Assembly (NCBI GenBank): GCA_028875335.1
Contig: JAPPEF010000084.1
Coordinates: 1-15,160 of the forward strand
Direction of reading: 5' to 3'
Length of the DNA: 15,160 nt
From: Gemmatimonadota bacterium
GTDB taxonomy: Bacteria; Latescibacterota; UBA2968; UBA8231
The notes under the pieces were generated by a model. It was given only the letters and a program-made list of their open reading frames with translations, was not told the origin of the DNA and searched no databases. This document shows, piece by piece, positions 1,141-15,160 of the stretch. Position 1 is the first letter of the stretch, and each line of letters begins with the position of its first letter. Both the position numbers and the translations under genes were made by a program.

Positions 1141-4100
1141 ATGAGCGACATATCCTTTGAGCACGTGTTGAGCAATCAGTACACGGTTTTTGATGGGCTG
1201 GCTGGGATGCACGTGGAAGACATCTACCAAGACCGCCAGGGCTTTCTCTGGATCGCCACGGCCGATGGCGGCGTCAGCCGATTCGACAGCGCCCGGTTCG
1301 ATACGTTTGGCCTCAAAGACGGGCTGCCGAATCTGACGGTCATGGCCATTGCCGAGGATGCGGACGGGCGACTTTTGTTCGGCACGTTTGGCGGGGGGAT
1401 TGCCGCGTACGACGGGCGTAGTTTTCAGGTGTACACTACTAAGCACGGCCTGCCTTCCAATGAGATCGTGGGCCTGCAAGCTCAGCCGGACGGCTCGATT
1501 GTGGCGATGACTGGCGCAGGCGTGGCGTGGTTTGCCGAGGGCCGTTGCATAAGGAGCATAACCGAAGTTGGCGGCCAACCGTTGGGGCGGGTGTACGACA
1601 TGATCACTGATGCGGCTGGTACCACATGGTTGGCGACGATGAGCCGAGGCGTCCTTAGCTTGGATGGACGGTGCATGGGGCTCGGCGAAGAGGCGGACCA
1701 ATGGCCTTGGAAATTCGCCCAAGACCCCTCCGGCCATCTGTGGATCGCTTTCCATTACATGGGTAGCGGAGTCCTGATCGGCCACTACGATCCACGAGAC
1801 CAACATTTTGCATGTCTTAACGTGGGTAAGGGCGACGAGGGAGTGGTGCAGAACGGGACGCGGCACGTGCGGACTGACGAGAGGGGTTTGCTCTGGCTGA
1901 CTCGCCGCGGCGTGATGGTACACTACGGCCAGAAGTGGCAGTCCTTTTCTGCTTCCTTGCCGGATGTTGACTTTTCGGGTACGCGCCTGACGTACGAGGA
2001 TCTCGAGGGCAATATCTGGATCGGGCTTTGGGGTGGTGGGCTGATTTTTTGCGACCCGACTAGTATACAGTGTTACACGGAAGCCGACGGCCTGCCCGAC
2101 CGCGAGATTCGCTGCTTAGGCGAAGATCCTGAAGGTCGGATGTGGATTGGGACGATGGGGGGCATGGCCTGCATGGAAGACGGTCAGATCCTCTCGGTAG
2201 GGTCCCGTGAAATCGTCTCGGCGATGGTGATGGATGGCCAGGGGCAGGTTTGGAGCGCTGGGGCTGCGGGCAAGGTGTACAAATGGAAGGGCCAATCACC
2301 ACAAGCGATTCCGGTGGCTGGAGAGACTCATTCCGAAGAAATCGCCAGGCTATGCAAAGATGGGCAAGGGCGTATCTGGGTCGGTACGTCCGAGGGCCGC
2401 TTCGGCTGGATAGAGAAAGATCGATTTATTCTCCTTGACGAATGCGGCACCGCGCTGCAAGACCAAGACAGGATATTCTGGATCGGAGCGCTGCTGAGAG
2501 ACCAAGACGGGGTACTCTGGATTGGTTCATACGGAGAAGTCCAGGCGCTCTACTGTTACGAGGATGGTCGCTTGCACCCAGCGGATATAGCCGAAGCGGA
2601 GTCCATCGCCTATGTCAACGTCTTGTGGGCGCACCAAAACACCCTGTGGGTGGGCACGGCCAAGGGACTTTTCGTCCTAGATCTTTCGTCGCGGCAGGTG
2701 CGTCGGTTTACCGCCGAGCAGTTCGGGTTGTCGGCTAATGGCATCTTGGCGCTGACGGTTGACCCGCAGGGCAATATCTGGCTGGGCACCAGCGGCGGCG
2801 GCGTCCTCCGCTACGACGGCCAGACCTTCCAGAGTATCCGCTTGGGGTCATCCGCCCTCGAAAACAAGGTCGAAGCGGTCCTGTGTGATCGGCGCGGTCG
2901 GCTGTGGTTTGGGACGCGGGCGGGGCTGGTTGCTTATCAGCCGGGACGCACGCCGCCGTGCTTAGTGATCCGCGAGGTGATGGCCGGCACGCTCTTGGCC
3001 GCGCCCGCAGCCGTATCCTGCCCGGAGAGCACGCCTGAGATCCGCATTTACTTCCAGGGCATCAGCTTCCGCACCGGCGCGGGTCAGATGCGCTACAGCC
3101 ATCGGCTATTAGGTCACGGTCCGGCGGAACAGTGGAGCGAGTTTGCCTTGGCTGATGAGGCGGTGTACAACGCCTTGCCGGTGGGCGAGTATCGCTTTGA
3201 GGTGCGGACGATGGACCGCGATGGCTTGCTGTCGGAGGTGGCCAGCGTGGAGATTCAAGTCCTTCCCGACGCCAAAACCGAACGCATCCACGCTTTTGAA
3301 AACGTCCTGCGAGCTACCGATCACGTGGTGCATAGCGAGAGTTGGGCGATGCGGCAAGTGATGGAACAGACCGTGCGCGTCGCCGAGACGGCGATGACCG
3401 TGCTGGTGCTGGGCGAGACCGGCACGGGCAAGGGCTTACTGGCGCAGACCATCCACGAAACGAGCACCCGCCGCAAGCGGCCTTTCATCCAAGTCAATTG
3501 CGGGGCGCTGCCGGTTGGGTTGGTGGAAAGCGAGTTATTCGGCCATGAGAAGGGGGCCTTTACCGGCGCGGCGAGCCGTCAGCTTGGTCGCTTTGAACTG
3601 GCCGATGGCGGCACGCTCTTTCTGGACGAGATCGGCGATTTGCCATTGGAGTCTCAGCGGGTGCTGCTGCATATCTTAGAGGAGAATGCCCTGACCCGCG
3701 TCGGCGGCAAACAGCCTGTGCGCGTGGACGTGCGGGTCATCGCGGCGACCAATCGCGACCTGCGGCATGCCATCGAGGAAGGCACATTCCGCGAAGACCT
3801 ATTCTACCGCCTGAGCGTTTTTACGCTAGAGCTTCCGCCACTGCGTCAGCGACAAGAGGATATCCCGGCTTTGGCGGCGCATTTTGCTGAGCGGTATGCC
3901 CAGCACCTACAGCGGCCGGTGCCGACCTTAGACGAGGGGGTGGTTGCGCACTTGCAGGGGTATGCTTGGCCGGGGAATGTGCGGGAGTTGGAGCACTTGA
4001 TTCATCGGGCGGTGTTGCTGTGCGAAGGCGGGGTGATCCGCGTTGGTGATTTGTTGTTGCCGTCAGTTGGTCGGCGTGTTGAGGAAGCGGAGCAACCAGC

Positions 4101-4272
4101 GCCAGCGGCTGGCGAAGGTTTGGACGAAAAGCAGCAGCTTGTGAAGGCGTTGCAAGCGACCAACTGGATGATCTATGGCGAGCGGGGTGCGGCGCGCTTG
4201 TTGGGCATGGGCCCAGAGAAGCTGCGCTATCGCATGAGGAAGTACGGGTTGCGCCGACCGAAGACGTCGTAA
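1141..4272 (+). CDS. Sigma54-dependent activator with double beta-propeller sensor domain (EBP1)
   Basis: This 1043-residue protein combines a periplasmic-type sensor with a sigma54 enhancer-binding protein. Residues 1-620 carry about 14 repeats of the form GxxWIGTxGGGxxxYD, as in Reg_prop two-component-regulator propellers, enough for two seven-bladed propellers. A Y_Y_Y-like beta-sandwich follows (about 631-708). The AAA+ domain spans about 730-975, with Walker A GETGTGKG 758-765, GAFTGA sigma54-contact loop 805-810, Walker B TLFLDE 825-830, sensor I around AATNRD 868-873 and AWPGNVREL 942-950. A Fis-type helix-turn-helix ends the protein (about 997-1043). All motifs needed for ATP hydrolysis and sigma54 contact are present. 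No signal peptide, transmembrane segment, receiver or kinase domain is seen, so it should be a cytoplasmic one-component regulator. ATG 1141 is chosen over 1084 because homology with the paralogue begins there and AAAGG sits five bases upstream. Its targets are probably the promoter at 4458 and perhaps that at 10165. The ligand is unknown; HTCS relatives sense glycan fragments. Confidence 0.93.
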   Translation: MSDISFEHVLSNQYTVFDGLAGMHVEDIYQDRQGFLWIATADGGVSRFDSARFDTFGLKDGLPNLTVMAIAEDADGRLLFGTFGGGIAAYDGRSFQVYTTKHGLPSNEIVGLQAQPDGSIVAMTGAGVAWFAEGRCIRSITEVGGQPLGRVYDMITDAAGTTWLATMSRGVLSLDGRCMGLGEEADQWPWKFAQDPSGHLWIAFHYMGSGVLIGHYDPRDQHFACLNVGKGDEGVVQNGTRHVRTDERGLLWLTRRGVMVHYGQKWQSFSASLPDVDFSGTRLTYEDLEGNIWIGLWGGGLIFCDPTSIQCYTEADGLPDREIRCLGEDPEGRMWIGTMGGMACMEDGQILSVGSREIVSAMVMDGQGQVWSAGAAGKVYKWKGQSPQAIPVAGETHSEEIARLCKDGQGRIWVGTSEGRFGWIEKDRFILLDECGTALQDQDRIFWIGALLRDQDGVLWIGSYGEVQALYCYEDGRLHPADIAEAESIAYVNVLWAHQNTLWVGTAKGLFVLDLSSRQVRRFTAEQFGLSANGILALTVDPQGNIWLGTSGGGVLRYDGQTFQSIRLGSSALENKVEAVLCDRRGRLWFGTRAGLVAYQPGRTPPCLVIREVMAGTLLAAPAAVSCPESTPEIRIYFQGISFRTGAGQMRYSHRLLGHGPAEQWSEFALADEAVYNALPVGEYRFEVRTMDRDGLLSEVASVEIQVLPDAKTERIHAFENVLRATDHVVHSESWAMRQVMEQTVRVAETAMTVLVLGETGTGKGLLAQTIHETSTRRKRPFIQVNCGALPVGLVESELFGHEKGAFTGAASRQLGRFELADGGTLFLDEIGDLPLESQRVLLHILEENALTRVGGKQPVRVDVRVIAATNRDLRHAIEEGTFREDLFYRLSVFTLELPPLRQRQEDIPALAAHFAERYAQHLQRPVPTLDEGVVAHLQGYAWPGNVRELEHLIHRAVLLCEGGVIRVGDLLLPSVGRRVEEAEQPAPAAGEGLDEKQQLVKALQATNWMIYGERGAARLLGMGPEKLRYRMRKYGLRRPKTS

Positions 4273-4280
4273 GCGGCCAG

Positions 4281-4336
4281 CACGGAAAGTCGTTCAAATT
4301 GCACGGAAAGTCGTTCAAATTGCACGAGAAATCGTG
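4281..4336 (+). promoter_or_regulatory. Three-site upstream activating array (predicted EBP binding sites)
   Basis: Three 14-bp dyads lie at 4281-4294, 4302-4315 and 4323-4336. The first two read CACGG-AAAG-TCGTT (imperfect) and sit in an exact 21-bp tandem repeat. The third, CACGA-GAAA-TCGTG, is a perfect dyad. Centre-to-centre spacing is exactly 21 bp, two helical turns, so all sites face the same side of the helix. They start 8 bp after the activator stop codon and lie about 130-172 bp upstream of the -24 element, the usual range for sigma54 enhancer sites. The matching array at 9987-10041 supports function. Binding by EBP1 or EBP2 is inferred. Confidence 0.8.
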
Positions 4337-4410: not shown

Positions 4411-4440
4411 AAGCCTTTAGGTGATCCTAAAGGCTTTTCT
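4411..4440 (+). terminator. Rho-independent terminator after EBP1
   Basis: A perfect 11-bp stem (4411-4421 with 4426-4436) closes a four-base TGAT loop and is followed by a T-rich tail (TTTTCT overlapping the stem end). It would end the EBP1 transcript before the sigma54 promoter, separating activator and target transcription units. A similar terminator stands at the same place after EBP2. Confidence 0.85.
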
Positions 4441-4457: not shown

Positions 4458-4473
4458 TGGCACGGAATGTGCT
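4458..4473 (+). promoter_or_regulatory. Sigma54 (-24/-12) promoter of the TolB-like gene pair
   Basis: TGGCACGGAATGTGCT matches the sigma54 consensus TGGCACG-N4-TTGC with one mismatch (GTGC). The invariant GG (4459-4460) and GC (4471-4472) are separated by exactly ten bases. The predicted transcription start is about 4484, some 40 bp before the chosen start codon at 4526. The same element recurs at 10165. The adjoining gene encodes a sigma54 activator with an intact GAFTGA loop, which strongly supports the call. Confidence 0.9.
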
Positions 4474-4525: not shown

Positions 4526-5509
4526 ATGACCTATCGATCTCTACTGCTCGTCTGCTTGGCAACGCTGGGGCTGGCCGTCGCTGGCTGGGGGCAAGCCGAT
4601 GGCAAAATCGCATTTCTCTCCCACCGCGAGGGGTACAATGACGTGTGGATTATGAATGCGGATGGGAGCGATCCCGTGAACCTAACCCAAGGACAGTATT
4701 GCGCTAGTCCGATTTGGTCTCCAGATGGCACGAAGATCGCCTATATAGACGTTGGTGCCGATTATTCCGGTAGGGACATCTGGGTGATGGACGCCGACGG
4801 CGGCAATCGAAAGCAGCTAACAGACCATATTAAAAAAATAGGTCCTAATAACGCAGAAGACTTGTTTTGGTCTGAAGACGGCCAAAGCATTTACTACTTT
4901 GTGTGGGATCGCTCTGAGTTGTTCGCCGTGGCACCGGACGGCAGCGAATCTTCACTTGTGGAATGGAGAGGTGTGGAATGGAGGGAGGCGGCTTTGATAA
5001 TCCGCCGCTTTTGGGATCGCCGCTATCTTTCTCCAGACGAAACCAAACGGGCAATCGTCGGCGTGCTGCATGGTGACGAAGAGGGCCAAGCTGATGACAA
5101 AGAGAGCCGAGATATCTTCATTGTGATCAGTGAGGAGCCCTTTATGGTCGGTTCAGACGAGGTCACGGTCATGCTCCCGTCCGGCCAACCCGTTGATCTC
5201 GATTTTATGGATGTCGGCGGTTCTTGGGCCTCTGCTCCTTTTCCCATTACTTGGGCACCCAACAGCACGAGGGTAGCCTTCACTTCATACACCATTTTCA
5301 ATAGTTCTGGCACTTCTTTGTCCTATTACCCCGACACTGGAGAGATTTGGGCTGTCGATATAGACGGGAGCAACTTGGTCAATTTGACCAACGGTTTGGG
5401 CGGAGATTCTCCCGTTTGGCAACCGGTTTCCTCTTTTACTACTGCGACGAGCGTCGAAGCCCAGTCGTGGGGACAGGTCAAATCGCTGCTTTCAACGGGT
5501 ACTCATTAA
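4526..5509 (+). CDS. Secreted TolB/PD40-type beta-propeller protein, copy 1
   Basis: This 327-residue protein has a signal peptide (MTYRSLLLVCLATLGLAVAGWGQ, probable cleavage near residue 23), so it should be exported. The mature part consists of WD40-like PD40/TolB repeats. These show clearly as KIAFLS...DVWIMNADGSDPVNLT...PIWSPDG, then TKIAYI...DIWVMDADGGNRKQLT, a weaker central set, and a last blade with EIWAVDIDGSNLVNLT. No catalytic motif is seen, so binding or scaffolding is more likely than enzymology. The last 20 residues (ATSVEAQSWGQVKSLLSTG) lie outside the propeller and are kept in the neighbouring copy. It is the first gene behind the sigma54 promoter at 4458 and is followed after 32 bp by its paralogue, presumably in one operon. 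The physiological role is unknown. It is shorter than TolB and lacks the TolB N-terminal domain, so it is not a Tol-Pal component. Confidence 0.87.
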   Translation: MTYRSLLLVCLATLGLAVAGWGQADGKIAFLSHREGYNDVWIMNADGSDPVNLTQGQYCASPIWSPDGTKIAYIDVGADYSGRDIWVMDADGGNRKQLTDHIKKIGPNNAEDLFWSEDGQSIYYFVWDRSELFAVAPDGSESSLVEWRGVEWREAALIIRRFWDRRYLSPDETKRAIVGVLHGDEEGQADDKESRDIFIVISEEPFMVGSDEVTVMLPSGQPVDLDFMDVGGSWASAPFPITWAPNSTRVAFTSYTIFNSSGTSLSYYPDTGEIWAVDIDGSNLVNLTNGLGGDSPVWQPVSSFTTATSVEAQSWGQVKSLLSTGTH

Positions 5510-5541: not shown

Positions 5542-6486
5542 ATGACCTATCGATCTCTACTAATCGTCTGCTTGGCAACGCTGGGGCTAGCCGTCGCTGG
5601 CTGGGGGCAAGCCGATGGTAAAATAGCATTTCTCTCCAGACACGAGGGGCGTTCTGACGTGTGGATTATGAATGCGGATGGGAGCGTCCCCATCAACTTA
5701 ACCCCAGGCCGACATCTGCAGTGCGTTAGCCCGGCTTGGTCTCCAGATGGCACGAAGATCGCCTATCTCGCCTTTGACGATCTTTTCGATTCCGATGGTG
5801 TCCTCTATGTCGATTATTCCCAAGGTGCCATCTGGGTGATGGACGCCGATGGCGGCAATCCGCAACAAGTGGGATATCTAGTAGATCCCGGATCCGAATC
5901 CGGATCTGAAGAGATCTTTTGGGCTGAAGACGGGAGTCGCATTTACTACTATAGGAGGGGGTCCCCCAATGAACTGTTCGCGGTGGAGTTGGGCGGCAGT
6001 GGCTCCTCACCCGTGGATTGGAAGGAGGGGGCTGGGATAGCCCGCCGTTTCCGCGATAATCGTTCTCCAGACGGAACCAAACGAGCAGATGTCGTGTTGC
6101 AGGACGACGAGGGCAATGCCTACCTACGCCTAGTTAGCTTCGCTCCCAGTGAGGGGCCGCAGCCTTCTAAACAGATAGAAGATTTCTCGGAGATCCTCCT
6201 TCCCGATCTACCCTATCAACAAGCCGAACTTGAACCCGGCTGGGAGAGAATGTCTGACCCAACTACTTGGTCGCCTGACAGCATGAGAATCGCCTTCTCT
6301 GCTGCTAGCGAGCAAGGGGACGATGAGATTTGGGTTGTTGATATAGACGGGAGCAACTTGGTCAATTTGACCAACGGCTTAGGTGGACGCAAACCCTCGT
6401 GGCAGCCGACGACCCCGGCTGCGACGAGCGTCGAAGTCCAGTCGTGGGGGCGGATCAAAGCGCGGCTTTCAACGGGTATTCATTAA
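5542..6486 (+). CDS. Secreted TolB/PD40-type beta-propeller protein, copy 2
   Basis: This 314-residue paralogue of the upstream gene has a nearly identical signal peptide and ribosome binding site (AAGGAG at 5529-5534). PD40 repeats include DVWIMNADGSVPINLT, AIWVMDADGGNPQQV and EIWVVDIDGSNLVNLT with intervening W-SPDG turns. The C-terminal tail ATSVEVQSWGRIKARLSTG matches copy 1. The first and last roughly 45 codons are very similar to copy 1, while the middle is much more diverged. A longer frame opens at 5347 inside copy 1, but the signal peptide and ribosome site fix ATG 5542. The gene probably shares the sigma54 promoter at 4458. The short segment at 5873-5905, rich in GGATC/GATCC, encodes a Gly/Ser/Glu loop in the diverged middle part. 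The function is unknown beyond an exported propeller. Confidence 0.87.
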   Translation: MTYRSLLIVCLATLGLAVAGWGQADGKIAFLSRHEGRSDVWIMNADGSVPINLTPGRHLQCVSPAWSPDGTKIAYLAFDDLFDSDGVLYVDYSQGAIWVMDADGGNPQQVGYLVDPGSESGSEEIFWAEDGSRIYYYRRGSPNELFAVELGGSGSSPVDWKEGAGIARRFRDNRSPDGTKRADVVLQDDEGNAYLRLVSFAPSEGPQPSKQIEDFSEILLPDLPYQQAELEPGWERMSDPTTWSPDSMRIAFSAASEQGDDEIWVVDIDGSNLVNLTNGLGGRKPSWQPTTPAATSVEVQSWGRIKARLSTGIH

Positions 6487-6498
6487 TCTCGCCTCATC

Positions 6499-6535
6499 CG
6501 TAGGGGGCGGCTTGCGCTCCGCACCGCCCCCTACG
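6499..6535. repeat. Perfect GC-rich palindromic hairpin (REP/MITE-like)
   Basis: A 12-bp perfect inverted repeat (CGTAGGGGGCGG at 6499-6510 with its complement at 6524-6535) flanks a 13-base interior that itself can pair TGCG with CGCA around a CTC loop. No T-tract follows on either strand, which argues against a plain intrinsic terminator. It resembles dispersed GTAGGGGCG-type palindromes seen in several environmental genomes (from memory, not checked). It sits 13 bp after the second TolB-like gene and might protect or end that mRNA. Confidence 0.65.
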
Positions 6536-6598
6536 CGTCCTTCCGCACTAATCCTTCCTTATCGGTCCGCAAGCGCAGAATCCAAAAGTAACCACTAC

Positions 6599-6670
6599 CC
6601 GAAAAAGTCGTAGGCGGCCAACACAGCATGGTCGTGGAAATCCTTGCGCTGACGGCTGAAGCTGCGCATC
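6599..6670 (+). other. Decayed copy of the post-activator control region
   Basis: The stretch beginning CCGAAAAAGTCGTAGGCGG corresponds to the end of EBP1 plus its 3' flank (CCGAAGACGTCGTAAGCGG) and to 9964-9980 after EBP2. It is followed by a damaged dyad (CAC-N7-TCGTG, 6622-6636) and then the conserved 20-bp block at 6651-6670. No sigma54 promoter or terminator follows. The order of elements therefore matches the live control regions but is truncated. I read it as the scar of a recombination or of a lost third activator. The rest of 6536-6691 shows nothing recognisable. Confidence 0.55.
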
Positions 6671-6691
6671 GTTCCGTCCTCTTGTGCGCTG

Positions 6692-6812
6692 CTGGTGAAA
6701 TTCAACTTGAGGCAATCCTAGCCTAAGATCAGATTTAGGATGTCGGCAGTCGTACCTCAGGGGTGGGTCCTATATTAAAGATCGGGACCTCCCTATCGTC
6801 GGAAGGACGCGT
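6692..6812 (+). promoter_or_regulatory. Conserved leader/promoter region of activator EBP2
   Basis: This is the second copy of the leader in front of EBP1. Similarity begins abruptly at CTGGTGAAATTCAACTTGAG. The inverted repeat CCTAA-GATCAGAT-TTAGG is perfect here (6722-6739). TATATTAAA at about 6771-6779 is a candidate -10 region. AAGGA at 6803-6807 is the ribosome binding site. No sigma54 element is visible. Its retention in both copies suggests it carries the activators' own promoter and perhaps an operator. Confidence 0.6.
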
Positions 6813-9800
6813 ATGAGCGACATATCCTTTGAGCACGTGCTGAGTAGCCAATACACGGTCTTTGATGGGTTGGCGGGGATGCACGTGGAAGACATCTATC
6901 AAGATCGCCAGGGTTTTCTTTGGATCGCCACGGCCGACGGGGGCGTCAGCCGGTTCGACAGCGCTCGGTTTGATAACTTTGGCCTCAAGGACGGTCTGCC
7001 CAATCTGACGGTCATGGCCATTGCCGAGGAGGCGGACGGGCGGCTTTTGTTCGGCACGTTCGGCGGTGGGATTGCCGCGTACGACGGACGCGGCTTTCAG
7101 GTGTACACCACTGAGCATGGCCTGCCTTCCAATGAGATTGTGGGCCTGCAAGCTCAGCCAGATGGCTCGATTTTGGTGCTGACCGGCGCAGGCGTGGCGT
7201 GGTTTGCCGAGGGCCGCTGCACAAAGTGTATAACCGACGTTGGCGGCCAACCGTTGGGGCGGGTGTACGACATGGCCACTGACGCGGCTGGTACCACTTG
7301 GTTGGCGACGATGAGCCGAGGCGTCCTTAGCTTGGATGGACGGTGCATAGGGCTCGACGAGGAGGCGGGCCAATGGCCTTGGAAATTTGCCCAAGATCCC
7401 TCCGGCCATCTGTGGATTAGTTTCCATTACACCGGTAGAGGCGTCTTGATTGGTCGCTACGATCCACAGAACCAACATCTCGCATTCATTAATGTAGGCA
7501 TGGGCGACGAGGAAGTGGTGCAGCACGGGACGCGGCATGTGCGGACTGACGAGAGGGGTTGGCTCTGGCTGACCCACCGCGGCGTGATGGTACACGATGG
7601 TCAGGGGTGGCAGTCTTTTTCCGCTTCCTTGCCGGATGTTGACTTTTCGGGTACGCGTCTGACGTACGAAGACCGCGAGGGCAATATCTGGATTGGGCTT
7701 TGGGGCGGCGGGCTGATTTTTTGCGACCCGACTAGTATCCGACGCTACACGGAAGCCGACGGCCTGCCCGACCGCGAGATTCGCTGCTTGGGCGAAGATT
7801 TCGAGGGACGGATGTGGATTGGCACGATGGGGGGCATGGCCTGCATGGAAGAGGGCCAAATCTGCCCGGTTAAGACGGGGGAGATCGTCTCGGCGATAGT
7901 GGTGGATGGCCAAGGCCAGGCCTGGAGTGGTGGGAACGCGGGCAAGGTGTACAAGTGGAAGGGCCAAACGCCACAAGTGATCTCGGTGGCCGAAGAGACC
8001 CATCCCGAAGAAATCTCCGGGCTATGCGAAGATTCCGAAGGGCGTATCTGGGTCGGTACATCCGAGAGCCGCTTCGGCTGGATAGAGGAAAATCGCTTTA
8101 TCCCTCTTGAATGCGGCACCTCTCTACAAGACTGGGTATTCTGGGTCGGATCGCTACTGCAAGACCGCGACGGAGTATTCTGGATGGGTTCAGTTGGAGT
8201 AGTACCGGCACTCTACTGTTACGAGGATGGGCACTTGCACCCAGCGGATATAGCCGAAGTGGAGTCCATCGCCTATGTCTACGTCTTGTGGGAGTACCAA
8301 AACACCCTGTGGATAGGCACGGCCAAGGGGCTTTTCACCCTTGATCTTTCGTCGCGGGAGGTGCGTCGGTTTACTGCCGAGCAGTTCGGGTTGTCGGCTA
8401 ATGGTATCTTGGCACTGACGGTCGATTCGCAGGGCAATATCTGGATGGGCACCAGCGGCGGTGGCGTCCTCCGCTACGACGGCCAGACTTTCCAGAGCAT
8501 CCGCTTGGGGCCGTCTGCCCTCGAAAACAAGGTCGAAGCCGTCCTGTGCGACCGTCGCGGTGGGCTGTGGTTTGGGACGCGGGCGGGGCTAGTCGCCTAT
8601 CAACCGGGACACACGCCGCCGCGCTTGGTCATCCGCGAGGTGATGGCTGGCACGCTCTTGACCGCCCCCGAAGCCGTATCCTGCCCAGAGAGTACCCCTG
8701 AAATCCGCATCCATTTCCAGGGCATCGGTTTTCGCACCGGCGCGGGACAGATGCGCTATAGTCATCGCTTGGTAGGCCACGGTCCGACGGAACAATGGAG
8801 CGCGTTTACGGCTGCCGATGAGGTCGCGTATAGTATCCCGCCAGTGGGCGAGTATTGCTTTGAGGTGCGGACGATGGACCGCGATGGCCTGCTGTCTGAG
8901 GTCGCCAGTCTGGATATTCAAATTCTCCCCGACGCCAAAACCGAACGCATCCACGCCCTTGAAAGCGTCTTGCGCGCTACCGACCACGTCGTGCACAGTC
9001 AGAGTTGGGCGATGCGCCAGGTGATGGAGCAGACCGTGCGGGTAGCCGAGACGGCCATGACCGTGCTGGTGCTGGGCGAGACCGGCACGGGCAAGGGCTT
9101 ACTAGCGCAAACCATCCACGAGACAAGCACTCGCCGCAAGCGGCCTTTCATCCAAGTCAATTGCGGGGCGTTGCCGACTGGGTTGGTCGAAAGCGAGTTA
9201 TTCGGCCACGAGAAGGGGGCTTTTACCGGGGCGGCGAGCCGTCAACTCGGGCGCTTTGAACTGGCTGATGGCGGTACGCTCTTTTTGGACGAAATCGGCG
9301 ATTTGCCGTTGGAGTCTCAGCGGGTGCTGCTGCATATCTTGGAGGAGAATGCCTTGACCCGCGTCGGCGGTGAGCAGCCTGTGAGCGTGGATGTGCGGGT
9401 CATCGCGGCGACCAACCGCGACTTGCGGCAGGCGATCCAGGAAGGCACGTTCCGCGAAGACCTGTTCTACCGCCTGAGCGTTTTTACGCTAGAGCTTCCG
9501 CCACTGCGGCAGCGGCAAGAGGATATCCCGGCGTTGGCGGCGCATTTTGCCGAGCGGTATGCCCAGCATCTGCGGCGTCCGGTGCCGACGCTAGACGAAG
9601 GGGTAGTCTCGCACTTGCAGGGGTATGCTTGGCCGGGGAATGTGCGGGAGTTGGAGCACTTGATCAACAGAGCGGTCTTGCTGTGCGAGGACGGGGTGAT
9701 CCGCGTTGGTGATTTACTGCTGCCGTCGGTTGGTCGGCGGGCTGGAGATGCAGGCCCACCCGCGCCAGCGGCTGGCGAAGGCTTGGATGAAAAGCAGCAG

Positions 9801-9932
9801 CTTGTGGAGGCGCTGCAAGCGACTAACTGGATGATCTATGGGGAGCGGGGAGCGGCGCGTTTGTTGGGCATGAATCCGGAGAAGCTGCGCTATCGCATGC
9901 GGAAGTATGGGTTGAGTCGCCCGAAGAAGTAG
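6813..9932 (+). CDS. Sigma54-dependent activator with double beta-propeller sensor domain (EBP2)
   Basis: This 1039-residue paralogue of EBP1 is collinear with it: about 14 Reg_prop-like blades (residues 1-620), a Y_Y_Y-like domain, an AAA+ sigma54-interaction domain and a C-terminal Fis-type helix-turn-helix. Walker A GETGTGKG is at 755-762 and GAFTGA at 802-807; Walker B TLFLDE and AWPGNVREL are also intact. No signal peptide or membrane span is seen, so it should be cytoplasmic. The AAA+ and DNA-binding parts are almost identical to EBP1, while blades at about residues 345-495 differ most and carry small deletions, pointing to changed sensing with kept DNA recognition. ATG 6813 has AAGGA five bases upstream. 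It precedes a dyad array and sigma54 promoter (10165) serving the TlpA/FG-GAP genes, its presumed targets. A long open frame on the opposite strand across its 5' half is a composition shadow. Confidence 0.93.
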   Translation: MSDISFEHVLSSQYTVFDGLAGMHVEDIYQDRQGFLWIATADGGVSRFDSARFDNFGLKDGLPNLTVMAIAEEADGRLLFGTFGGGIAAYDGRGFQVYTTEHGLPSNEIVGLQAQPDGSILVLTGAGVAWFAEGRCTKCITDVGGQPLGRVYDMATDAAGTTWLATMSRGVLSLDGRCIGLDEEAGQWPWKFAQDPSGHLWISFHYTGRGVLIGRYDPQNQHLAFINVGMGDEEVVQHGTRHVRTDERGWLWLTHRGVMVHDGQGWQSFSASLPDVDFSGTRLTYEDREGNIWIGLWGGGLIFCDPTSIRRYTEADGLPDREIRCLGEDFEGRMWIGTMGGMACMEEGQICPVKTGEIVSAIVVDGQGQAWSGGNAGKVYKWKGQTPQVISVAEETHPEEISGLCEDSEGRIWVGTSESRFGWIEENRFIPLECGTSLQDWVFWVGSLLQDRDGVFWMGSVGVVPALYCYEDGHLHPADIAEVESIAYVYVLWEYQNTLWIGTAKGLFTLDLSSREVRRFTAEQFGLSANGILALTVDSQGNIWMGTSGGGVLRYDGQTFQSIRLGPSALENKVEAVLCDRRGGLWFGTRAGLVAYQPGHTPPRLVIREVMAGTLLTAPEAVSCPESTPEIRIHFQGIGFRTGAGQMRYSHRLVGHGPTEQWSAFTAADEVAYSIPPVGEYCFEVRTMDRDGLLSEVASLDIQILPDAKTERIHALESVLRATDHVVHSQSWAMRQVMEQTVRVAETAMTVLVLGETGTGKGLLAQTIHETSTRRKRPFIQVNCGALPTGLVESELFGHEKGAFTGAASRQLGRFELADGGTLFLDEIGDLPLESQRVLLHILEENALTRVGGEQPVSVDVRVIAATNRDLRQAIQEGTFREDLFYRLSVFTLELPPLRQRQEDIPALAAHFAERYAQHLRRPVPTLDEGVVSHLQGYAWPGNVRELEHLINRAVLLCEDGVIRVGDLLLPSVGRRAGDAGPPAPAAGEGLDEKQQLVEALQATNWMIYGERGAARLLGMNPEKLRYRMRKYGLSRPKK

Positions 9933-9986: not shown

Positions 9987-10041
9987 CACGAAAAGTCGTG
10001 GAAAAACACGAAAAGTCGTGCACGGTCCACGGAAAGTCGTG
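9987..10041 (+). promoter_or_regulatory. Three-site upstream activating array behind EBP2
   Basis: Three dyads lie at 9987-10000, 10007-10020 and 10028-10041. The first two are perfect CACGA-AAAG-TCGTG; the third is CACGG-AAAG-TCGTG with one arm mismatch. Spacing of centres is 20 and 21 bp. Their centres lie about 131-173 bp upstream of the -24 element at 10166, practically the same geometry as after EBP1 although the DNA between the sites has diverged. They are the likely binding sites of EBP2, and probably of EBP1, whose recognition helices are nearly the same. Confidence 0.82.
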
Positions 10042-10118: not shown

Positions 10119-10147
10119 CCTTTAGGTTGATCCTAAAGGATTTTTTT
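10119..10147 (+). terminator. Rho-independent terminator after EBP2
   Basis: An 8-bp stem (CCTTTAGG at 10119-10126 with CCTAAAGG at 10132-10139) closes a five-base TTGAT loop and is followed after one A by seven T residues. It corresponds to the terminator at 4411 and would separate the EBP2 transcript from the sigma54 unit that starts about 45 bp further on. Confidence 0.88.
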
Positions 10148-10164: not shown

Positions 10165-10180
10165 TGGCACGGAATGTGCA
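10165..10180 (+). promoter_or_regulatory. Sigma54 (-24/-12) promoter of the TlpA/FG-GAP operon
   Basis: TGGCACGGAATGTGCA is identical to the promoter at 4458 except for the last base. GG (10166-10167) and GC (10178-10179) have the required ten-base gap. The predicted transcription start is near 10191, inside the upstream extension of the next open frame. This means the in-frame ATG at 10162 cannot be the start, and 10240 is used. Confidence 0.9.
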
Positions 10181-10239: not shown

Positions 10240-11934
10240 ATGAACGTGTATTCCGCCGCCCTAATGGCCATAGTCGCTTCCGTGAGCATCTGTCTAGGCA
10301 CCGCAAGCGCGCAAAACCAGCCCCGCGCCGCAATAGTAACCGGCGAGGTCCACAACACTCCATCGCGGGACATCGAGTTCTATCACGAACCGCTACTTGC
10401 TCCCGGGCCGTCCGAACACCCCATCGTCTTGGACGAGCAAAACCGCTTTGCGCTCCTCTTGAACATTCCCAAAGGAGTCTTGGTCACCGGGCTTTACAAA
10501 GGCGAGCAATACTTCCGCATCCCCTTCTTTGTCGAACCCGGCGACAGCCTGCACGCTGTTGTAACCTTCGCCGAGGTGTCGGAGGCCGACTCTGCGGCGG
10601 CGGTGGAACCCGACAGTCTACACAGTGCAGCCGATGAGGCCTCTTCCCCCTATTCCCTGACTTTTAGCGGTCGGGGAGCAGAGAACAATCGCTTTTTAGC
10701 CGAGTTCTGGCCCCAACATCGTTCCCTCAAATCAGATCATGCGCTGGAGGCCGAGGAGTTTGCACGCCAAGTCAAACAGCAGCGGCGGGATAGATTTGCC
10801 TTGCTCGCCGAGGGACGCGAGCGATACGCGCTTTCTCCGGGGTTCATCGACTATATGACGGTCTTTTTAAACTACAAGTGGGCCGATCAGATGTTTTCCT
10901 ATACGAAGTTTGCGTTTAGAAACGGCAATTGGGTGTTCAGATTAAACGTCAAACCCTCCGAGAGAAGAGCAGTTCCCCCGAACTACTACGATTTTCTGCA
11001 AGAAATTCCCTTGATAGATGAAAAGGCGATTGGCGTCCAAGAGTACCGCTGGTTTGTAGTGGATGCGCTAGACTTGGAGGCGAAGTGGGACAGGCCACCT
11101 AGACTTGCCGATGAGTACAAGCTGTCGGGTTTGGGTCTGTCGTCAGCCGTCCACGCCCAACTCGACTCCATGTACGACGCGCACAGGAGGGCCCCCAGAC
11201 CATCGCACGGGGCCCCCAGACTATGGCAGAAGATCGATCTGTCGGGTTTGAGTCTATCGCCGGACATCCAATCCCAACTTTACTCCATCCTTGCCGGAGC
11301 GAGTTCTTTGGTCCCCCCACCAGGAATTGCAGAACGATATGACCTAGCCAAGCAAAAACTGCAAGGGCGAGTGCTCTATTGGTTTCTAGCCGGGGAGCTG
11401 AGAAATGGAATTAGGGACGGCTATGAAGCCTATGTGGATGCCCGCTTGCAATCCTTTGAGGAGAGCAATCCCTTCCCCGAATACACCGAGGCTATTAAGG
11501 CGGTTTTGATGCTGCAACCGGGGCAACCCGCTCCCGATTTCACCCTCAATGATCCCGATGGTCAAGCCGTATCGCTGAGCCAGTTCAAAGGCAAGGTAGT
11601 CTTGCTGGATTTCTGGGCGAGTTGGTGTGGACCGTGTATCGCCGATTTGGGGACTCTCCGCAAGATCAAGGAGCAAATGGCCAGTCAGCCGGTCGTTTTC
11701 CTCAACGTCTCATTGGACTCGAATGACGGAGCTTGGAAGCGGGCTATTGCCAAACACCAGATCCAAGGCGTCCACGTGCGCTCGGGGGGGCACTCGGAGC
11801 AAGTAGCGCAAGCCTATAATGTAGTCAGTCTCCCTCGGTACTATCTAGTGGATCCACAAGGGCTAATTGTGGAGAATAATCTGAGCCTATTTGACACTGA
11901 TGAGGTTGTGGCCAAAATCGAGGAGAATCTGTGA
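10240..11934 (+). CDS. Exported TlpA-like thioredoxin-fold protein with N-terminal DUF4369-like domain
   Basis: This 564-residue protein has a signal peptide (about residues 1-25, ending TASAQ). An N-terminal beta-rich domain (about 30-125) with VLDEQNRFALLLNIPKG and FFVEPGDSLHAVV resembles DUF4369-type domains in front of TlpA-like proteins of Bacteroidota. A mostly helical middle (about 150-420) contains two copies of a [KD]LSGLxLS...QL.S motif, at about 294-312 and 333-351. The C-terminal thioredoxin fold (about 425-564) begins PGQPAPDFTL, has the redox motif WCGPC (Cys463, Cys466) and a cis-Pro region SLPRYY (Pro532). A thiol-disulfide oxidoreductase outside the cytoplasm is therefore likely. 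AGGAAGAG at 10224-10231 precedes ATG 10240. It is the first gene after the sigma54 promoter at 10165; the next gene starts 38 bp after its stop, and a paralogue follows that. Its specific partner is unknown. Confidence 0.88.
   Translation: MNVYSAALMAIVASVSICLGTASAQNQPRAAIVTGEVHNTPSRDIEFYHEPLLAPGPSEHPIVLDEQNRFALLLNIPKGVLVTGLYKGEQYFRIPFFVEPGDSLHAVVTFAEVSEADSAAAVEPDSLHSAADEASSPYSLTFSGRGAENNRFLAEFWPQHRSLKSDHALEAEEFARQVKQQRRDRFALLAEGRERYALSPGFIDYMTVFLNYKWADQMFSYTKFAFRNGNWVFRLNVKPSERRAVPPNYYDFLQEIPLIDEKAIGVQEYRWFVVDALDLEAKWDRPPRLADEYKLSGLGLSSAVHAQLDSMYDAHRRAPRPSHGAPRLWQKIDLSGLSLSPDIQSQLYSILAGASSLVPPPGIAERYDLAKQKLQGRVLYWFLAGELRNGIRDGYEAYVDARLQSFEESNPFPEYTEAIKAVLMLQPGQPAPDFTLNDPDGQAVSLSQFKGKVVLLDFWASWCGPCIADLGTLRKIKEQMASQPVVFLNVSLDSNDGAWKRAIAKHQIQGVHVRSGGHSEQVAQAYNVVSLPRYYLVDPQGLIVENNLSLFDTDEVVAKIEENL
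11189..11224 (+). repeat. Short in-frame tandem duplication
   Basis: The 15-base string GGGCCCCCAGACYAT occurs twice at a 21-bp offset (11189-11203 and 11210-11224), adding a second A-P-R to the middle domain. The paralogue at 14093 has only one corresponding copy, so this looks like a recent in-frame slippage or duplication. Confidence 0.6.
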
Positions 11935-11972: not shown

Positions 11973-14051
11973 ATGTTGAAACTTGCCGTTGTTGTACTCG
12001 TGGTGCTATGGAGTGGACCCGCCGCGGCGATCATTTGGGAGTTCGACGATGGGACGACGCAAGGATGGGCCGCCAAAGAAGCTAGTATATTGGGGGGCGG
12101 GCCGCGTGGATTTAACCAGTTTCCGGGGGGGGTCGAAGACGGCGTGTGGAAAATCGATGTCTCGCCCTCTATTACCGAGGATTGGCCTATACCGAATGTC
12201 GAATTGATTTCTCCCACCATAGGGCACGATTCGAGTTTGTTCGACCAGATCTGGGTCCGATTCCGCACCGTACATCACAGCCCTACGGTCGGTTCCTTTT
12301 GGCTCACTTGGACCAATGAGCACAACCTTATGTCTCCGATTTGGGGCCAAGATGATCCGCCCGAAAGGCTATTTAGGCTTTCAGGACAAAGCGACTTCGT
12401 TTACACCACCGAGTGGCAGGAAGTGGAGTTTTCCTTCGTCGGCCAGGACGAGGTCGTGTGGGAAGGGCTATTAAGGGATATTCGGCTAAATTTTGTCCTA
12501 GCTTGGAACGAGGACGACGTGGTTGGGGAGATTGAGATTGACTGGATTGAGTTGAGTGGCGTTGAAGAATTCCTACAGGGTGAACTCCCCCCGCCGCACG
12601 TAGAGTACTTTCGCTTTGATGAGGCCGGACTTTTTGCGCCGCCGGTTTTCTATCCGATTGCGCCGGGGATAGGGAGAGCAGCAGCTTATGGAGAGAGAGC
12701 CGGTATCTTGACGGACTTGGATGGCGATGGCGATGCAGACCTTTTCGCCTCTTGGAATGGTGAGAGGTTTTTTACAGAGGAAGGCGGCTGGACCATGGCC
12801 CTTAATGACGGCGAGGGTGCCTTTGAGACCGTGCGCACAGAGGGGATCGGACCTGGGTTGATAGAGGTTCTTGGCGGCGATTTGACCGGCGATGGCCAGG
12901 ACGAAATAGTGATGTCTCGACGCGCCGAGCTGAGTGGATTGGTGACCGAGGTTTGGTCTATAGAGTGGGACCTCCAACTGGAGATGCTCATCGAGATAGA
13001 TGATCGTGGGTTGAGGGATGTGGCGGATTGGGATGGCGATGGCGATGGCGAGTTGTTTGTAGGGCACACTACGTTGGAAGGCAGCACGTTAGATGTCTGG
13101 GATGTAGAGAACGGGATGTGGACCGATCCCGAGGTGGCTGTCGCTGAAAACCATTCGCCCTCTCGGATCGGCGACTTTACGGGCGATGGAATGCTGGAGG
13201 TGCTGTGGCTACCGATCGCCGGGCGGGCGAACACGCGGATCGTGGGGGCCTTGGGAGACGACGATCTTCAGAGCGGCGAGATATTTGAATTCGATGCGGG
13301 GAAGGAGGCATTAGGTGTGGGCGATTTTGATGGCGATGGGCAAGTAGATCTGCTCACGTCGCTCTTCCGCGCCCAATACGGAGATATCAAGGGCTTGGCC
13401 GTACAGCGAGGGGGAGTTGGGAGCGTAGTAGAAGAGACGGTCTTATACGATGAGCGGCTGTTTCTGCTCTCGCCGGTGATGGTGCGCGACTTGGACGCCG
13501 ATGGGGTGGAGGATTGGGTGTTTGTCGGTGGAGACCGCGCCTCGGGCTTTGGGGTATTTGTCGAATGGGGCGGAGGCGTGAATCCAACCCGAGCCGTGGA
13601 AAGGCATCGCCTGCAAGGTGATGGAGTAGAAGTGCTCTCCGGGGATGTCGATAGCGACGGCGATCTCGACTTGGTCGTGTTAGATCCGCTGTTGGGTGGG
13701 GTGCATGTGCTCAAAAGTTCGCTGGGTGAGCAGCCGACGGCCGTGCAGACGCCGACGATAGTCCAACCGGCACAGTATCGGCTCGGCGATAGCTATCCCA
13801 ATCCGTTCAATCCGGCTGTAGTGATTCCTCTCGATTTGGCGACGGACGCGGCGGGGGTGTCGCTGACCGTGTACGATGTGTTGGGACGGCGGGTGCGGCA
13901 GTTGTGGCAAGGGGCACTCGGAGCGGGTGCGCATCGTTTTACTTGGGATGGCCGCGACGAGGCGGGCCGGGGGGTAGCCGCCGGGGTGTATATCTATAAG
14001 GTCGAGGCAGATGGACAGATAGAAGCCAAGAAGACGACCAGACTCCCATGA
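11973..14051 (+). CDS. Secreted FG-GAP/VCBS propeller protein with T9SS/FlgD-type C-terminal domain
   Basis: This 692-residue exported protein opens with a signal peptide (MLKLAVVVLVVLWSGPAAA, about 1-19). Residues 20-205 form a beta-sandwich-like region that starts IIWEFDDGTTQGW and ends EIEIDWIEL, resembling carbohydrate-binding jelly rolls; this part is inference. Seven FG-GAP-type repeats follow, with Ca2+-loop motifs beginning near residues 248 (DLDGDGDADLF), 303, 352, 401, 451, 506 and 558 (DVDSDGDLDLV). That is about 50 residues apart, enough for one seven-bladed integrin-alpha-like propeller. The C-terminal 607-692 has SYPNPFNP, LTVYDVLGRRVRQL, FTWDGRDEAGRGVAAGVYIYKV and a final KKTTRLP. 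This is the type A sorting / FlgD-like domain of FCB secreted proteins, so surface delivery is likely; no T9SS gene is in this window. It lies between two TlpA-like genes, its stop overlapping an in-frame ATG of the next. It is probably expressed from the sigma54 promoter at 10165. Confidence 0.9.
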   Translation: MLKLAVVVLVVLWSGPAAAIIWEFDDGTTQGWAAKEASILGGGPRGFNQFPGGVEDGVWKIDVSPSITEDWPIPNVELISPTIGHDSSLFDQIWVRFRTVHHSPTVGSFWLTWTNEHNLMSPIWGQDDPPERLFRLSGQSDFVYTTEWQEVEFSFVGQDEVVWEGLLRDIRLNFVLAWNEDDVVGEIEIDWIELSGVEEFLQGELPPPHVEYFRFDEAGLFAPPVFYPIAPGIGRAAAYGERAGILTDLDGDGDADLFASWNGERFFTEEGGWTMALNDGEGAFETVRTEGIGPGLIEVLGGDLTGDGQDEIVMSRRAELSGLVTEVWSIEWDLQLEMLIEIDDRGLRDVADWDGDGDGELFVGHTTLEGSTLDVWDVENGMWTDPEVAVAENHSPSRIGDFTGDGMLEVLWLPIAGRANTRIVGALGDDDLQSGEIFEFDAGKEALGVGDFDGDGQVDLLTSLFRAQYGDIKGLAVQRGGVGSVVEETVLYDERLFLLSPVMVRDLDADGVEDWVFVGGDRASGFGVFVEWGGGVNPTRAVERHRLQGDGVEVLSGDVDSDGDLDLVVLDPLLGGVHVLKSSLGEQPTAVQTPTIVQPAQYRLGDSYPNPFNPAVVIPLDLATDAAGVSLTVYDVLGRRVRQLWQGALGAGAHRFTWDGRDEAGRGVAAGVYIYKVEADGQIEAKKTTRLP

Positions 14052-14060
14052 AGGAGGAGG
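14051..14060 (+). promoter_or_regulatory. Strong Shine-Dalgarno string without a matching start
   Basis: AAGGAGGAGG begins at the last base of the preceding stop codon, but no ATG, GTG or TTG lies 5-12 bases downstream. The chosen start at 14093 has its own weaker AAGGAAAAGG at 14080-14089. It may load ribosomes for re-initiation or be chance purine-rich spacer. Confidence 0.4.
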
Positions 14061-14092
14061 TCTTTCACAGAGTATTAAAAAGGAAAAGGCCG

Positions 14093-15160
14093 ATGAATCC
14101 ATACCTTTGCATCCTCGTCGCCCTGTTCAGTACAGCAAGTATAGGGCTAGCTCAAGCACCACGCGCCGCAATCGTCACCGGCGAAGTCCACAACGCTCCG
14201 TCGCGGGAAATCGAGTTTCGCCACGAACCGCTACTCGCTCCCGGACCGTCCCAACACCACATCGTCTTGGACGATCAAAATCGCTTTGCCCTGCTCTTGA
14301 ACGTTTCCAAAGGAACTTTCGTCACCGGGATTTACAAAGGTGAGCAATACTTCCTCATCCCCTTCTTTGTCGAACCCGGCGACAGTCTGCACGCTGTTGT
14401 TACCTTCGCCGAGGTGACAGAGGCCGACTCTGCGGCGGCAGTGGAATCTGACAGTTTGGACACGGCCGACGAGGAGGCCCCGCCCGCCTATTCCCTGACT
14501 TTTAGCGGCCGGGGCGCGGACAACAATCGCTTTTTAGCCGAGTTCTGGCCTCAACACAATGCCTTCGACCCAGACAATGGGCTGGAGTCCGAGGCGTTTA
14601 CGCGCCGAATAGCACAGCGGCGGCAGGATGAATTTACCCTACTAGCCGAGGGGCGCGAAAACCACGCGCTTTCTGCGGGATTCATCGACTATATGACGGT
14701 CTTTTTAAACTACAAGTGGGCCACTCAGATGTTTTCCTATCCGATGTTTGCGTTTAGAGACGGCCATTGGGTGCGCCGATTCAATGTCAAACCCTCCGAG
14801 AGAAGAGCCGTTCCCCCGGACTACTACGATTTCCTGCAAGAAATCCCCTTGATAGATGAAAAGGCTGTCGGTGTGAGAGGGTATCGCAGGTTTGTGGAGA
14901 ACGCTCTAGACTTGGAGGCGAAGTGGGACAGGCCCTCTAGACTTGCCGATAGGTACAAGCTGTCGGGGTTGGGGCTGTCAGAGTCTGTCCACGTCCAACT
15001 CGACTCCGTGTACCGTGCGAACAGCCCGCCCAGACTATCGCAGATGATTGATCTGGCGGAGGGGGGGTTAGCGGAGGAGACCTATGCCCAACTCGACTCC
15101 ATGTACCGAAACGCTGGCCGAGTGAAAGCCTCCGAAAAGGCCGCTTGGTTGGGGTTGGAA
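14093..15160 (+). CDS. Exported TlpA-like protein, second copy (3' end outside window)
   Basis: The frame is open for 356 codons to the window end. It is a clear paralogue of the gene at 10240: signal peptide MNPYLCILVALFSTASIGLAQA, then the DUF4369-like domain (PRAAIVTGEVHNAPSREIEF, VLDDQNRFALLLNVSKG, FFVEPGDSLHAVV). The helical middle follows (FSGRGADNNRFLAEFWPQH, YMTVFLNYKWATQMFSY, KWDRPSRLADRYKLSGLGLS). The thioredoxin domain with its CxxC should follow beyond the edge; I cannot see it, so redox function is only inferred from the paralogue. An in-frame ATG at 14048 overlaps the previous stop, but it would add a charged 15-residue extension before the signal peptide. ATG 14093 agrees with the paralogue and has AAGGAAAAGG just upstream. 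It is probably the third gene of the sigma54 operon. Confidence 0.85.
   Translation, partial: MNPYLCILVALFSTASIGLAQAPRAAIVTGEVHNAPSREIEFRHEPLLAPGPSQHHIVLDDQNRFALLLNVSKGTFVTGIYKGEQYFLIPFFVEPGDSLHAVVTFAEVTEADSAAAVESDSLDTADEEAPPAYSLTFSGRGADNNRFLAEFWPQHNAFDPDNGLESEAFTRRIAQRRQDEFTLLAEGRENHALSAGFIDYMTVFLNYKWATQMFSYPMFAFRDGHWVRRFNVKPSERRAVPPDYYDFLQEIPLIDEKAVGVRGYRRFVENALDLEAKWDRPSRLADRYKLSGLGLSESVHVQLDSVYRANSPPRLSQMIDLAEGGLAEETYAQLDSMYRNAGRVKASEKAAWLGLE

Follow-up and report, generated by a model that had tools for sequence, protein, structure and literature searches.

A glycan-receptor-type double propeller joined to a sigma54 activator: a putative soluble enhancer-binding protein with its predicted enhancer and promoter beside the gene

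A stretch of 15,160 nucleotides from a Gemmatimonadota bacterium placed by GTDB in Latescibacterota (assembly GCA_028875335.1, contig JAPPEF010000084.1; hereafter the window) encodes regulator A, a protein in which a sensor of the kind known from the hybrid two-component systems (HTCS) of Bacteroides is followed by a sigma54 activator. The locus raises the question of where in the cell such a sensor works, what it reads and which genes it serves. We consider it quite likely that regulator A is a soluble one-component enhancer-binding protein, which upon a cytoplasmic signal to its propeller half would activate adjacent and dispersed genes for surface proteins. This reading is favoured because the domains are intact, the sensor has clear homologues, the regulatory DNA beside the gene recurs in relatives, and the predicted upstream activating sequences (UAS) vary together with the helix-turn-helix (HTH) of the regulator.

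Pfam finds five families in regulator A, in the order Reg_prop (E 1.4e-44), Y_Y_Y (3.4e-6; residues 649-708), Sigma54_activat (4.7e-69; 732-896), AAA_lid_14 (1.1e-23) and HTH_8 (7.8e-5; 996-1035). All score above their curated cut-offs, narrowly so for Y_Y_Y (27.3 against 26.6 bits) and HTH_8 (22.8 against 22), and the four that the initial annotation had named from the letters (Reg_prop, Y_Y_Y, Sigma54_activat and HTH_8) are all recovered. The catalytic motifs of the AAA+ domain are intact: GETGTGKG (residue 758), GAFTGA (805), LDEIG (828), REDLFYRL (884) and PGNVREL (944). In the AlphaFold2 model (mean pLDDT 86.2, pTM 0.69, 114 sequences), the strands of residues 10-600 form fourteen blades in two seven-bladed propellers, by our own count of strands and Trp/Gly motifs, as had been supposed. 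After them come a beta domain (607-708), a helix (711-725), the AAA+ fold and the HTH, with low confidence for residues 976-994. Foldseek places the periplasmic sensor of the HTCS BT4663 first (E 1.4e-44, TM-score by target 0.62-0.65) and that of BT3049 next (E 4.5e-41, TM-score by target 0.68), followed by BT4673 and then by sigma54 AAA+ domains; by sequence, the sensor half matches the PDB entries 3v9f (1.4e-45), 4a2l (1.3e-37) and 3ott (7e-27). Sequence and fold alike therefore bear out the description of a glycan-sensor-type double propeller. The Pfam list of regulator A contains no histidine kinase, receiver or AraC HTH at E <= 0.1, and no receiver, FleQ or GAF domain. Pfam, the AlphaFold2 model and hydropathy together uphold the proposed direct fusion to a complete sigma54 activator, with no transmembrane segment, kinase or receiver.

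Signal peptides and transmembrane segments were judged by Kyte-Doolittle hydropathy, as 19-residue means. The maximum of regulator A (1.64) lies inside Y_Y_Y, and a bare threshold would not decide at this value. By place, no signal peptide or transmembrane segment appears: the N-terminus reaches 0.33 in regulator A and 0.47 in its second copy in the window (regulator B), and the stretch from Y_Y_Y to Walker A reaches 0.52 in both, compared with N-terminal values of 1.8-2.3 for the exported neighbours in the window. In a set of 248 proteins, six of the 239 listed relatives of at least 950 residues reach 1.8 anywhere. Seven of 19 proteins viewed by place (P0208, P0234, P0240, P0241, P0242, P0245 and P0246) are hydrophobic in two places, at the N-terminus (1.19-1.82) and in a segment that separates Y_Y_Y from AAA+ (1.42-2.09) and is preceded in six of them by a motif like FW/YW-x-x-x-WF; P0234 comes from a Calditrichaceae metagenome-assembled genome (MAG) and P0242 from an Ignavibacteria MAG. 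For a FastTree phylogeny of the AAA+ domain 45 proteins were taken, and P0217, P0181, P0183, P0202 and P0206 were dropped as they had no regular-expression match to Walker A. With midpoint rooting of the remaining 40 domains, nine membrane-type proteins form one clade apart from 31 soluble ones; the nine include the borderline P0231 and P0232, the latter having a signal-peptide-like start and no clear transmembrane segment. The membrane forms have no GKG in their Walker A motif. Hydropathy by place and the separate clade suggest that two topologies of one domain set exist, and that the window has the soluble one. An exported regulator was rejected, as hydropathy gives no signal peptide and a DNA-binding domain is present. 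We infer that regulator A is cytoplasmic, as the initial annotation had held, from the lack of a signal peptide or transmembrane segment and from the attached DNA-binding AAA+ part; the contrast with the seven membrane-type sisters strengthens the inference.

Beyond the initial annotation, the window holds regulator B and, 3' of each regulator, a unit of cis-regulatory DNA in a fixed order: three palindromes of CACGAAAAGTCGTG type spaced 20-21 bp, then a terminator-like hairpin and a predicted sigma54 promoter of -24/-12 type, and last the genes that encode exported proteins (table 1). The hairpin lies about 75-80 bp after the last palindrome, and the -24/-12 element, of the form TGGCACGGAATGTGC[TA] (at 4458 and 10165), about 20-26 bp after the hairpin. 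The UAS pattern CACGRRAARTCGTK has six matches in the window, all inside the two arrays (shuffle mean 0.01), and the sigma54 pattern TGGCACGNNNNKTGCW has two, both in position (none in 200 shuffles). Rfam gives no match at gathering thresholds in the window, so the hairpin belongs to no curated RNA family. It contains a possible IHF-like site (TTCAATCCTTTA), by resemblance to the IHF consensus. With Walker A and B and GAFTGA in the AAA+ domain, a C-terminal Fis-type HTH and a -24/-12 promoter nearby, regulator A has these sequence features of a bacterial enhancer-binding protein; the predicted UAS and sigma54 promoter adjoining its gene support the earlier view of a one-component sigma54 regulator.

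The window patterns were built from these very sites, and the real test is their recurrence elsewhere. Five whole genomes, reached through MAGs titled Gemmatimonadetes/Gemmatimonadota or Latescibacteria/Latescibacterota, contain 24 matches to the tandem UAS pattern (none to its reversed control) and 30 to the combined hairpin and -24/-12 pattern (control none), and each of the five encodes one RpoN. A first count covered 26 unique close regulators above 1000 bits, the window's two included, with a sigma54 site defined as at least 10 of 12 positions. Such a site occurs within 350 bp downstream of 22 (20 without L077 and L005, whose sites lie inside PD40 coding sequence). The controls give 27 of 250 for regions downstream of other long open reading frames (ORFs) of the same loci, one of 23 for upstream regions and 42 of 5200 for two-base-block shuffles. 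For a UAS pair scoring 21 or more of 28 positions, the figures are 18 of the 26 regulators and, for the same controls in turn, 18 of 250, four of 23 and 115 of 5200. Among regulators above 1300 bits from MAGs of Latescibacteria type, again with the window's two, the hairpin and -24/-12 element stand directly 3' of 22 of 28. Base pairing of the hairpin seems to be kept, because its ninth pair, left free in the search pattern, is paired in 44 of 46 unique hairpins by several combinations (T-A 37, G-C 4, A-T 1, C-G 1, T-G 1), four of them of Watson-Crick type. Downstream of more distant regulators, a palindrome is repeated with at most three mismatches within 500 bp of the stop codon in six of 21, a count made without control. 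At locus L064, a tandem palindrome of GGACC...GGTCC type occurs twice (by eye) 3' of a distant regulator (5855-9067, minus strand), with its own terminator-like hairpin and with TGGCACACTTTTTGCA 312 bp downstream of the regulator; the layout is alike and the letters differ.

The predicted enhancer and the DNA-binding domain change together. Where a regulator has both hairpin and array (the window's two are counted), a recognition helix with LRSR goes with arrays ending TCGTA (outer base A) in 11 of 11, and one with LRYR goes with TCGTG or TCGTT (outer base G or T) in 10 of 11, so that the rule holds in 21 of 22 by script (Fisher p 3.4e-5 for helix against outer base, kinship ignored). The scripted exception, L109, has the array CCACAAAAAAACTGTGG, ending TGTGG, and fits by eye. 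On a tree of the remaining protein, regulators with S and with Y are intermingled, and L058 (S, A), for instance, stands beside regulator B (Y, G). The UAS adjoins the end of the gene that encodes the HTH, so recombination may have exchanged the two as a single unit; whatever the cause, they move together. With enhancer, terminator and promoter next to the gene in most close members, the family provides naturally matched variants of DNA-binding domain and enhancer, together with a readable regulon of surface proteins.

The genes behind the cassettes of UAS, hairpin and promoter point to the cell exterior. The first ORF 3' of a cassette begins with a hydrophobic N-terminus in 32 of 38 cases; among the other long ORFs at these loci, 108 of 317 do so by the same measure, a 15-residue mean of at least 1.4 whose threshold was chosen afterwards and which start-codon choice favours. 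The six misses are a spurious small ORF before the redoxin gene of the window, two regulator genes, one ORF near a contig end, one truncated activator and one of no clear category. Pfam was run on 20 proteins 3' of cassettes or sigma54 sites, and the families found are FG-GAP with FlgD_ig, WD40 with FlgD_ig, FlgD_ig alone, Reg_prop with FlgD_ig, redoxin/AhpC-TSA, fn3, PD40, PQQ, peptidase A24 (twice) and a transglutaminase/glycosyltransferase-like protein; three of the 20 have no match. These likely targets fit the thesis of PMC3162934 that sigma54 often serves the bacterial exterior. The regulons are, by their sequence pattern, partly dispersed, because 17 of 46 unique cassettes have no regulator sequence within 700 bp upstream, while 25 follow the 3' end of a regulator and four a piece of one; in genome G005, three of 11 cassettes adjoin a full regulator. 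At L003/L058 (G001:C97), the cassette of one regulator lies directly upstream of another regulator gene, which makes a cascade possible. At L118 (11402-14140, minus strand) a truncated activator, whose match covers residues 764-1042 and includes no Walker A, precedes an exported protein with Reg_prop and FlgD_ig, behind a sigma54 cassette. The peptidase A24 (type IV leader peptidase) genes at L060 (14067-15182) and L078 (2419-3573) stand in operon-like order behind such a cassette. Frames of 56-81 residues in the same clusters (L051, L055, L063 and others) match the HTH region of the regulators alone, at 67-83% identity; they are probably 3' remnants that moved along with the cassette, though some may be small HTH proteins.

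Regarding its distribution, the architecture is real, well supported and wider than the initial annotation supposed. Reg_prop is accompanied by Sigma54_activat in 119 of 120, 120 of 120 and 112 of 120 proteins among the matches listed in three Pfam-annotated sets, in which the precomputed columns often omit Y_Y_Y and HTH_8. All 64 genomes of the phylum of G003, a chromosome titled Latescibacteria, match the whole-protein profile, many through AAA+ alone, and at least 28 have a near-full-length match (from before residue 60 to beyond residue 1000); in G007, G055 and G057 the sole such match counts one stop. The domain order is kept in all seven full-length distant members scanned. These matches indicate a widespread architecture and a frequent class of regulator in an uncultured phylum. 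A chance fusion was rejected on the near-full-length matches, and a pseudogene on the two intact copies and many intact relatives. Longer members (L104, L114, P0193 and P0199; 1136-1200 residues) carry an extension of LSFW/LTFW type before the propellers, which has no Pfam match in L104 and L114. Five other proteins (P0186, P0205, P0207, P0210 and P0212) have the same sensor type with a receiver and AraC HTH, or with an AraC HTH alone; their Pfam column shows no kinase and their N-terminal hydropathy is low.

Regulators A and B are identical at 267 of 300 positions in propeller 1, 247 of 302 in propeller 2, 86 of 106 in Y_Y_Y, 230 of 240 in AAA+ and 43 of 48 in the HTH; Y_Y_Y of regulator B scores 19.5 bits, below the cut-off of 26.6. 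The ORF of regulator A has an alternative start (TTG, 1084), and its ATG is common to regulator B. The window resembles the remains of a tandem array of regulator modules, because at 6599-6812 the relic of a third post-regulator segment is joined to a second copy of the upstream region of the regulator (121-bp match, 79%, E 2e-28). The product of the last gene has no Pfam match in the portion present.

Table 1. Features of the window, in order of position (aa, amino acids)
Feature	Position	Strand	Basis
Regulator A, 1043 aa: double Reg_prop propeller, Y_Y_Y, sigma54 AAA+, Fis-type HTH	1141..4272	+	Pfam, NCBIfam, AlphaFold2, Foldseek
Sensor of A: two 7-bladed beta-propellers, residues ~10-602	1168..2946	+	Reg_prop, model strands, PDB homology; blade limits approximate
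Y_Y_Y-type beta domain of A, residues ~603-708	2947..3264	+	PF07495 (649-708), AlphaFold2
Linker of A with helix 711-725; hydrophobic segment at the equivalent place in membrane-tethered sisters	3265..3333	+	AlphaFold2, comparison
Sigma54 AAA+ domain of A, residues 732-971, GETGTGKG and GAFTGA	3334..4053	+	Pfam, motifs
Fis-type HTH of A, residues 996-1043, recognition helix ...EKLRYRM	4126..4269	+	PF02954
Predicted UAS array A: three near-palindromes 21 bp apart, starts 4281, 4302, 4323	4281..4336	+	pattern
Terminator-like hairpin A, AAGCCTTTAGG/CCTAAAGGCTT and T run	4411..4437	+	-16.4 kcal/mol, z -5.6
Predicted sigma54 -24/-12 promoter A, TGGCACGGAATGTGCT	4458..4473	+	pattern
Likely target 1: exported PD40-repeat beta-propeller protein	4526..5509	+	PF07676; hydrophobic N-terminus
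Likely target 2: paralogous exported PD40 protein	5542..6486	+	Pfam; N-terminus read from ORF
Relic of a third post-regulator segment (decayed UAS region)	6599..6671	+	blastn
Regulator B, 1039 aa, same architecture, 88% identical to A	6813..9932	+	Pfam (Y_Y_Y below cut-off), comparison
Predicted UAS array B: three near-palindromes 20 and 21 bp apart, starts 9987, 10007, 10028	9987..10041	+	pattern
Terminator-like hairpin B with T run	10119..10139	+	-11.3 kcal/mol, z -3.0
Predicted sigma54 -24/-12 promoter B, TGGCACGGAATGTGCA	10165..10180	+	pattern
Likely target: exported redoxin/AhpC-TSA-domain protein	10240..11934	+	Pfam; N-terminus
Next gene in this direction: exported FG-GAP propeller protein, FlgD_ig at the C-terminus	11973..14051	+	Pfam; N-terminus
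Relative of the 10240 redoxin gene product, runs past the window end	14048..15160	+	phmmer 5e-157

As a mechanism, we propose that the HTH would bind the three predicted palindromes just past the stop codon of its own gene, where three dimers on three sites would make one hexamer. The assembled AAA+ ring would loop to the -24/-12 promoter some 120-180 bp further on and remodel sigma54-RNA polymerase through ATP hydrolysis; the closed complex of sigma54 and ATP hydrolysis by AAA+ are established steps. The genes for exported propeller and redoxin proteins would thereby be switched on, the effect of the regulator presumably being activation and not repression. The hairpin between UAS and promoter may end the regulator transcript, which would leave the targets dependent on the sigma54 promoter. 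The double propeller and Y_Y_Y would gate the assembly of AAA+, a proposal made by analogy with BT4663 as far as it is described in PMC5121618: a ligand or partner would alter the sensor dimer, and the change would pass through helix 711-725 to AAA+, not across a membrane.

Several findings weigh against this scheme. The RpoN evidence comes from five relatives, the genome of the window organism lying outside that search, and the 250 control regions were unpurged of dispersed cassettes; of their 18 UAS-pair matches, some probably arise because such cassettes follow. The standard unit is missing from six of the 28 close regulators: a PD40 gene comes directly after three and the remnant of such a gene after a fourth, a fifth no longer has its UAS or half of the hairpin, and the sixth is degenerate. 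Among more distant regulators, just two of 23 are followed by the hairpin, and eight of 21 have a sigma54 site matching 10 or more of 12 positions in the next 900 bp, a count with no control. In the AAA+ tree set, five of 45 proteins have no regex-standard Walker A and several others no GAFTGA. Finally, no conserved ligand pocket was identified, which also tells against the idea that the sensor, like the periplasmic HTCS sensors, responds to a small carbohydrate or other metabolite that occurs in the cytoplasm or is imported there, for example from host glycans. We regard such a ligand as a real possibility, if somewhat short of an even chance. The closest solved relatives bind saccharides, 4a2l being titled for heparin/heparan sulphate sensing, and PMC5121618 states that the two propellers of BT4663 each bind disaccharides at the entry face. 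Divergent specificity would also give the pattern seen in 39 close relatives, which, the disordered linker aside, differ most in the propeller segments 178-189, 227-238, 347-358, 391-402 and 427-453; however, no glycoside hydrolase or transporter family is found among the likely targets scanned.

Propellers often bind proteins, and the likely targets are repeatedly exported beta-propellers themselves (PD40, FG-GAP with FlgD_ig, WD40 with FlgD_ig, PQQ and one Reg_prop with FlgD_ig). The sensor could instead bind an intracellular protein, such as the unexported precursor of a surface propeller under its control, with transcription following demand or secretion flux; exported redoxin and peptidase A24 genes are also among the likely targets, and we think protein sensing of this kind rather unlikely. 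Its most specific form, in which the cytoplasmic double propeller binds unexported PD40, FG-GAP or Reg_prop precursors (all bearing export signals) and tunes sigma54 transcription, sensor and promoter cassette having multiplied together into switches that each have an enhancer code, is a long shot; if it were true, a glycan-receptor fold would have moved inside the cell as a secretion-feedback sensor. It is likewise doubtful that the propeller half is a constitutive module for oligomerisation or anchoring, with control exerted through the amount of regulator. Cascades such as the one possible at L003/L058 would suit such control, but the Reg_prop and Y_Y_Y matches are kept in members only 33-37% identical over the whole protein, and the same sensor type is also joined to AraC, receiver or SpoIIE outputs, as is the habit of an input domain. 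Least credible, to the point of being very improbable, is that the arrays and sigma54-like sites have no function and were simply carried along when the locus was recently duplicated in tandem. Such a duplication is indeed plain in the window (A, B and the relic), and cassettes elsewhere are dispersed too, some with a 3' relic of the regulator; yet the UAS changes with the recognition helix, the hairpin arms compensate each other, and the -24/-12 element is kept at regulators merely about 60% identical. In the preferred reading of a soluble enhancer-binding protein, the DNA itself shows both the switch and its likely targets, and the nature of the intracellular signal to the propeller becomes directly testable.

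The initial annotation knew of no described system with this architecture. A search of full texts gave no description of Reg_prop or Y_Y_Y with a sigma54 activator, a weak negative, as most subscription papers and the preprints lie outside its coverage; the main text of a genome study of sponge Latescibacterota mentions WD40 repeats and has no occurrence of "propeller", "sigma" or "regulator" (PMC12993501). To this extent the claim stands, whereas rarity does not follow from it, because the architecture is common in databases. Annotation pipelines have already met it, since relatives carry automatic names such as "sigma 54-interacting transcriptional regulator" or "DNA-binding NtrC family response regulator/ligand-binding sensor domain-containing protein". 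Among known activators, DmpR/XylR, PrpR and RtcR share with the window proteins an N-terminal sensor, AAA+ with GAFTGA and a C-terminal Fis HTH; DmpR is among the Foldseek matches, and the NCBIfam models of PrpR and RtcR match the AAA+ part. They are soluble and have sensor domains of other folds, whereas the window sensor is a double propeller of about 600 residues with Y_Y_Y. The AAA+ domain is closest to NifA, FleQ and NtrC-family entries, but, unlike these activators, the window proteins show no receiver, FleQ or GAF domain in Pfam, and regulator A has no N-terminal receiver of the NtrC response-regulator type. The membrane-tethered sisters P0234 and P0242 combine Reg_prop, Y_Y_Y, Sigma54_activat and HTH_8 in one chain as the window proteins do, and differ by their hydrophobic N-terminus and segment between Y_Y_Y and AAA+.

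To our knowledge, PorZ has no AAA+ or DNA-binding part. As described in PMC5121618, it has two 7-fold propellers and a C-terminal beta domain, like the window regulators, and unlike them is an exported surface protein; the N-terminal hydropathy of regulator A (0.33) gives no sign of a signal peptide or surface export. Transmembrane transcription regulators are also one-component and contain Y_Y_Y in 7.7%, but act from the membrane, and the main text on them has no occurrence of sigma54, Reg_prop or propeller (PMC10269533); by hydropathy, regulator A has no transmembrane segment. The nearest likeness is to the HTCS BT4663, BT3049 and BT4673, which have two 7-bladed Reg_prop propellers and Y_Y_Y with sensor and output in one chain, and whose sensors are similar in sequence (E 7e-27 to 1e-45) and fold (TM-score by target up to 0.68). 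In contrast, the window regulators have no detected signal peptide, transmembrane segment, histidine kinase, receiver or AraC HTH, and their output is a sigma54 AAA+ ATPase. Regulator A is most likely a soluble one-component enhancer-binding protein, not categorically new, with a sensor of a kind undescribed for that class as far as we found. This points to a second use of the HTCS sensor module, which PMC3243724 describes as periplasmic and as containing Reg_prop and YYY, namely as the input of soluble sigma54 activators.

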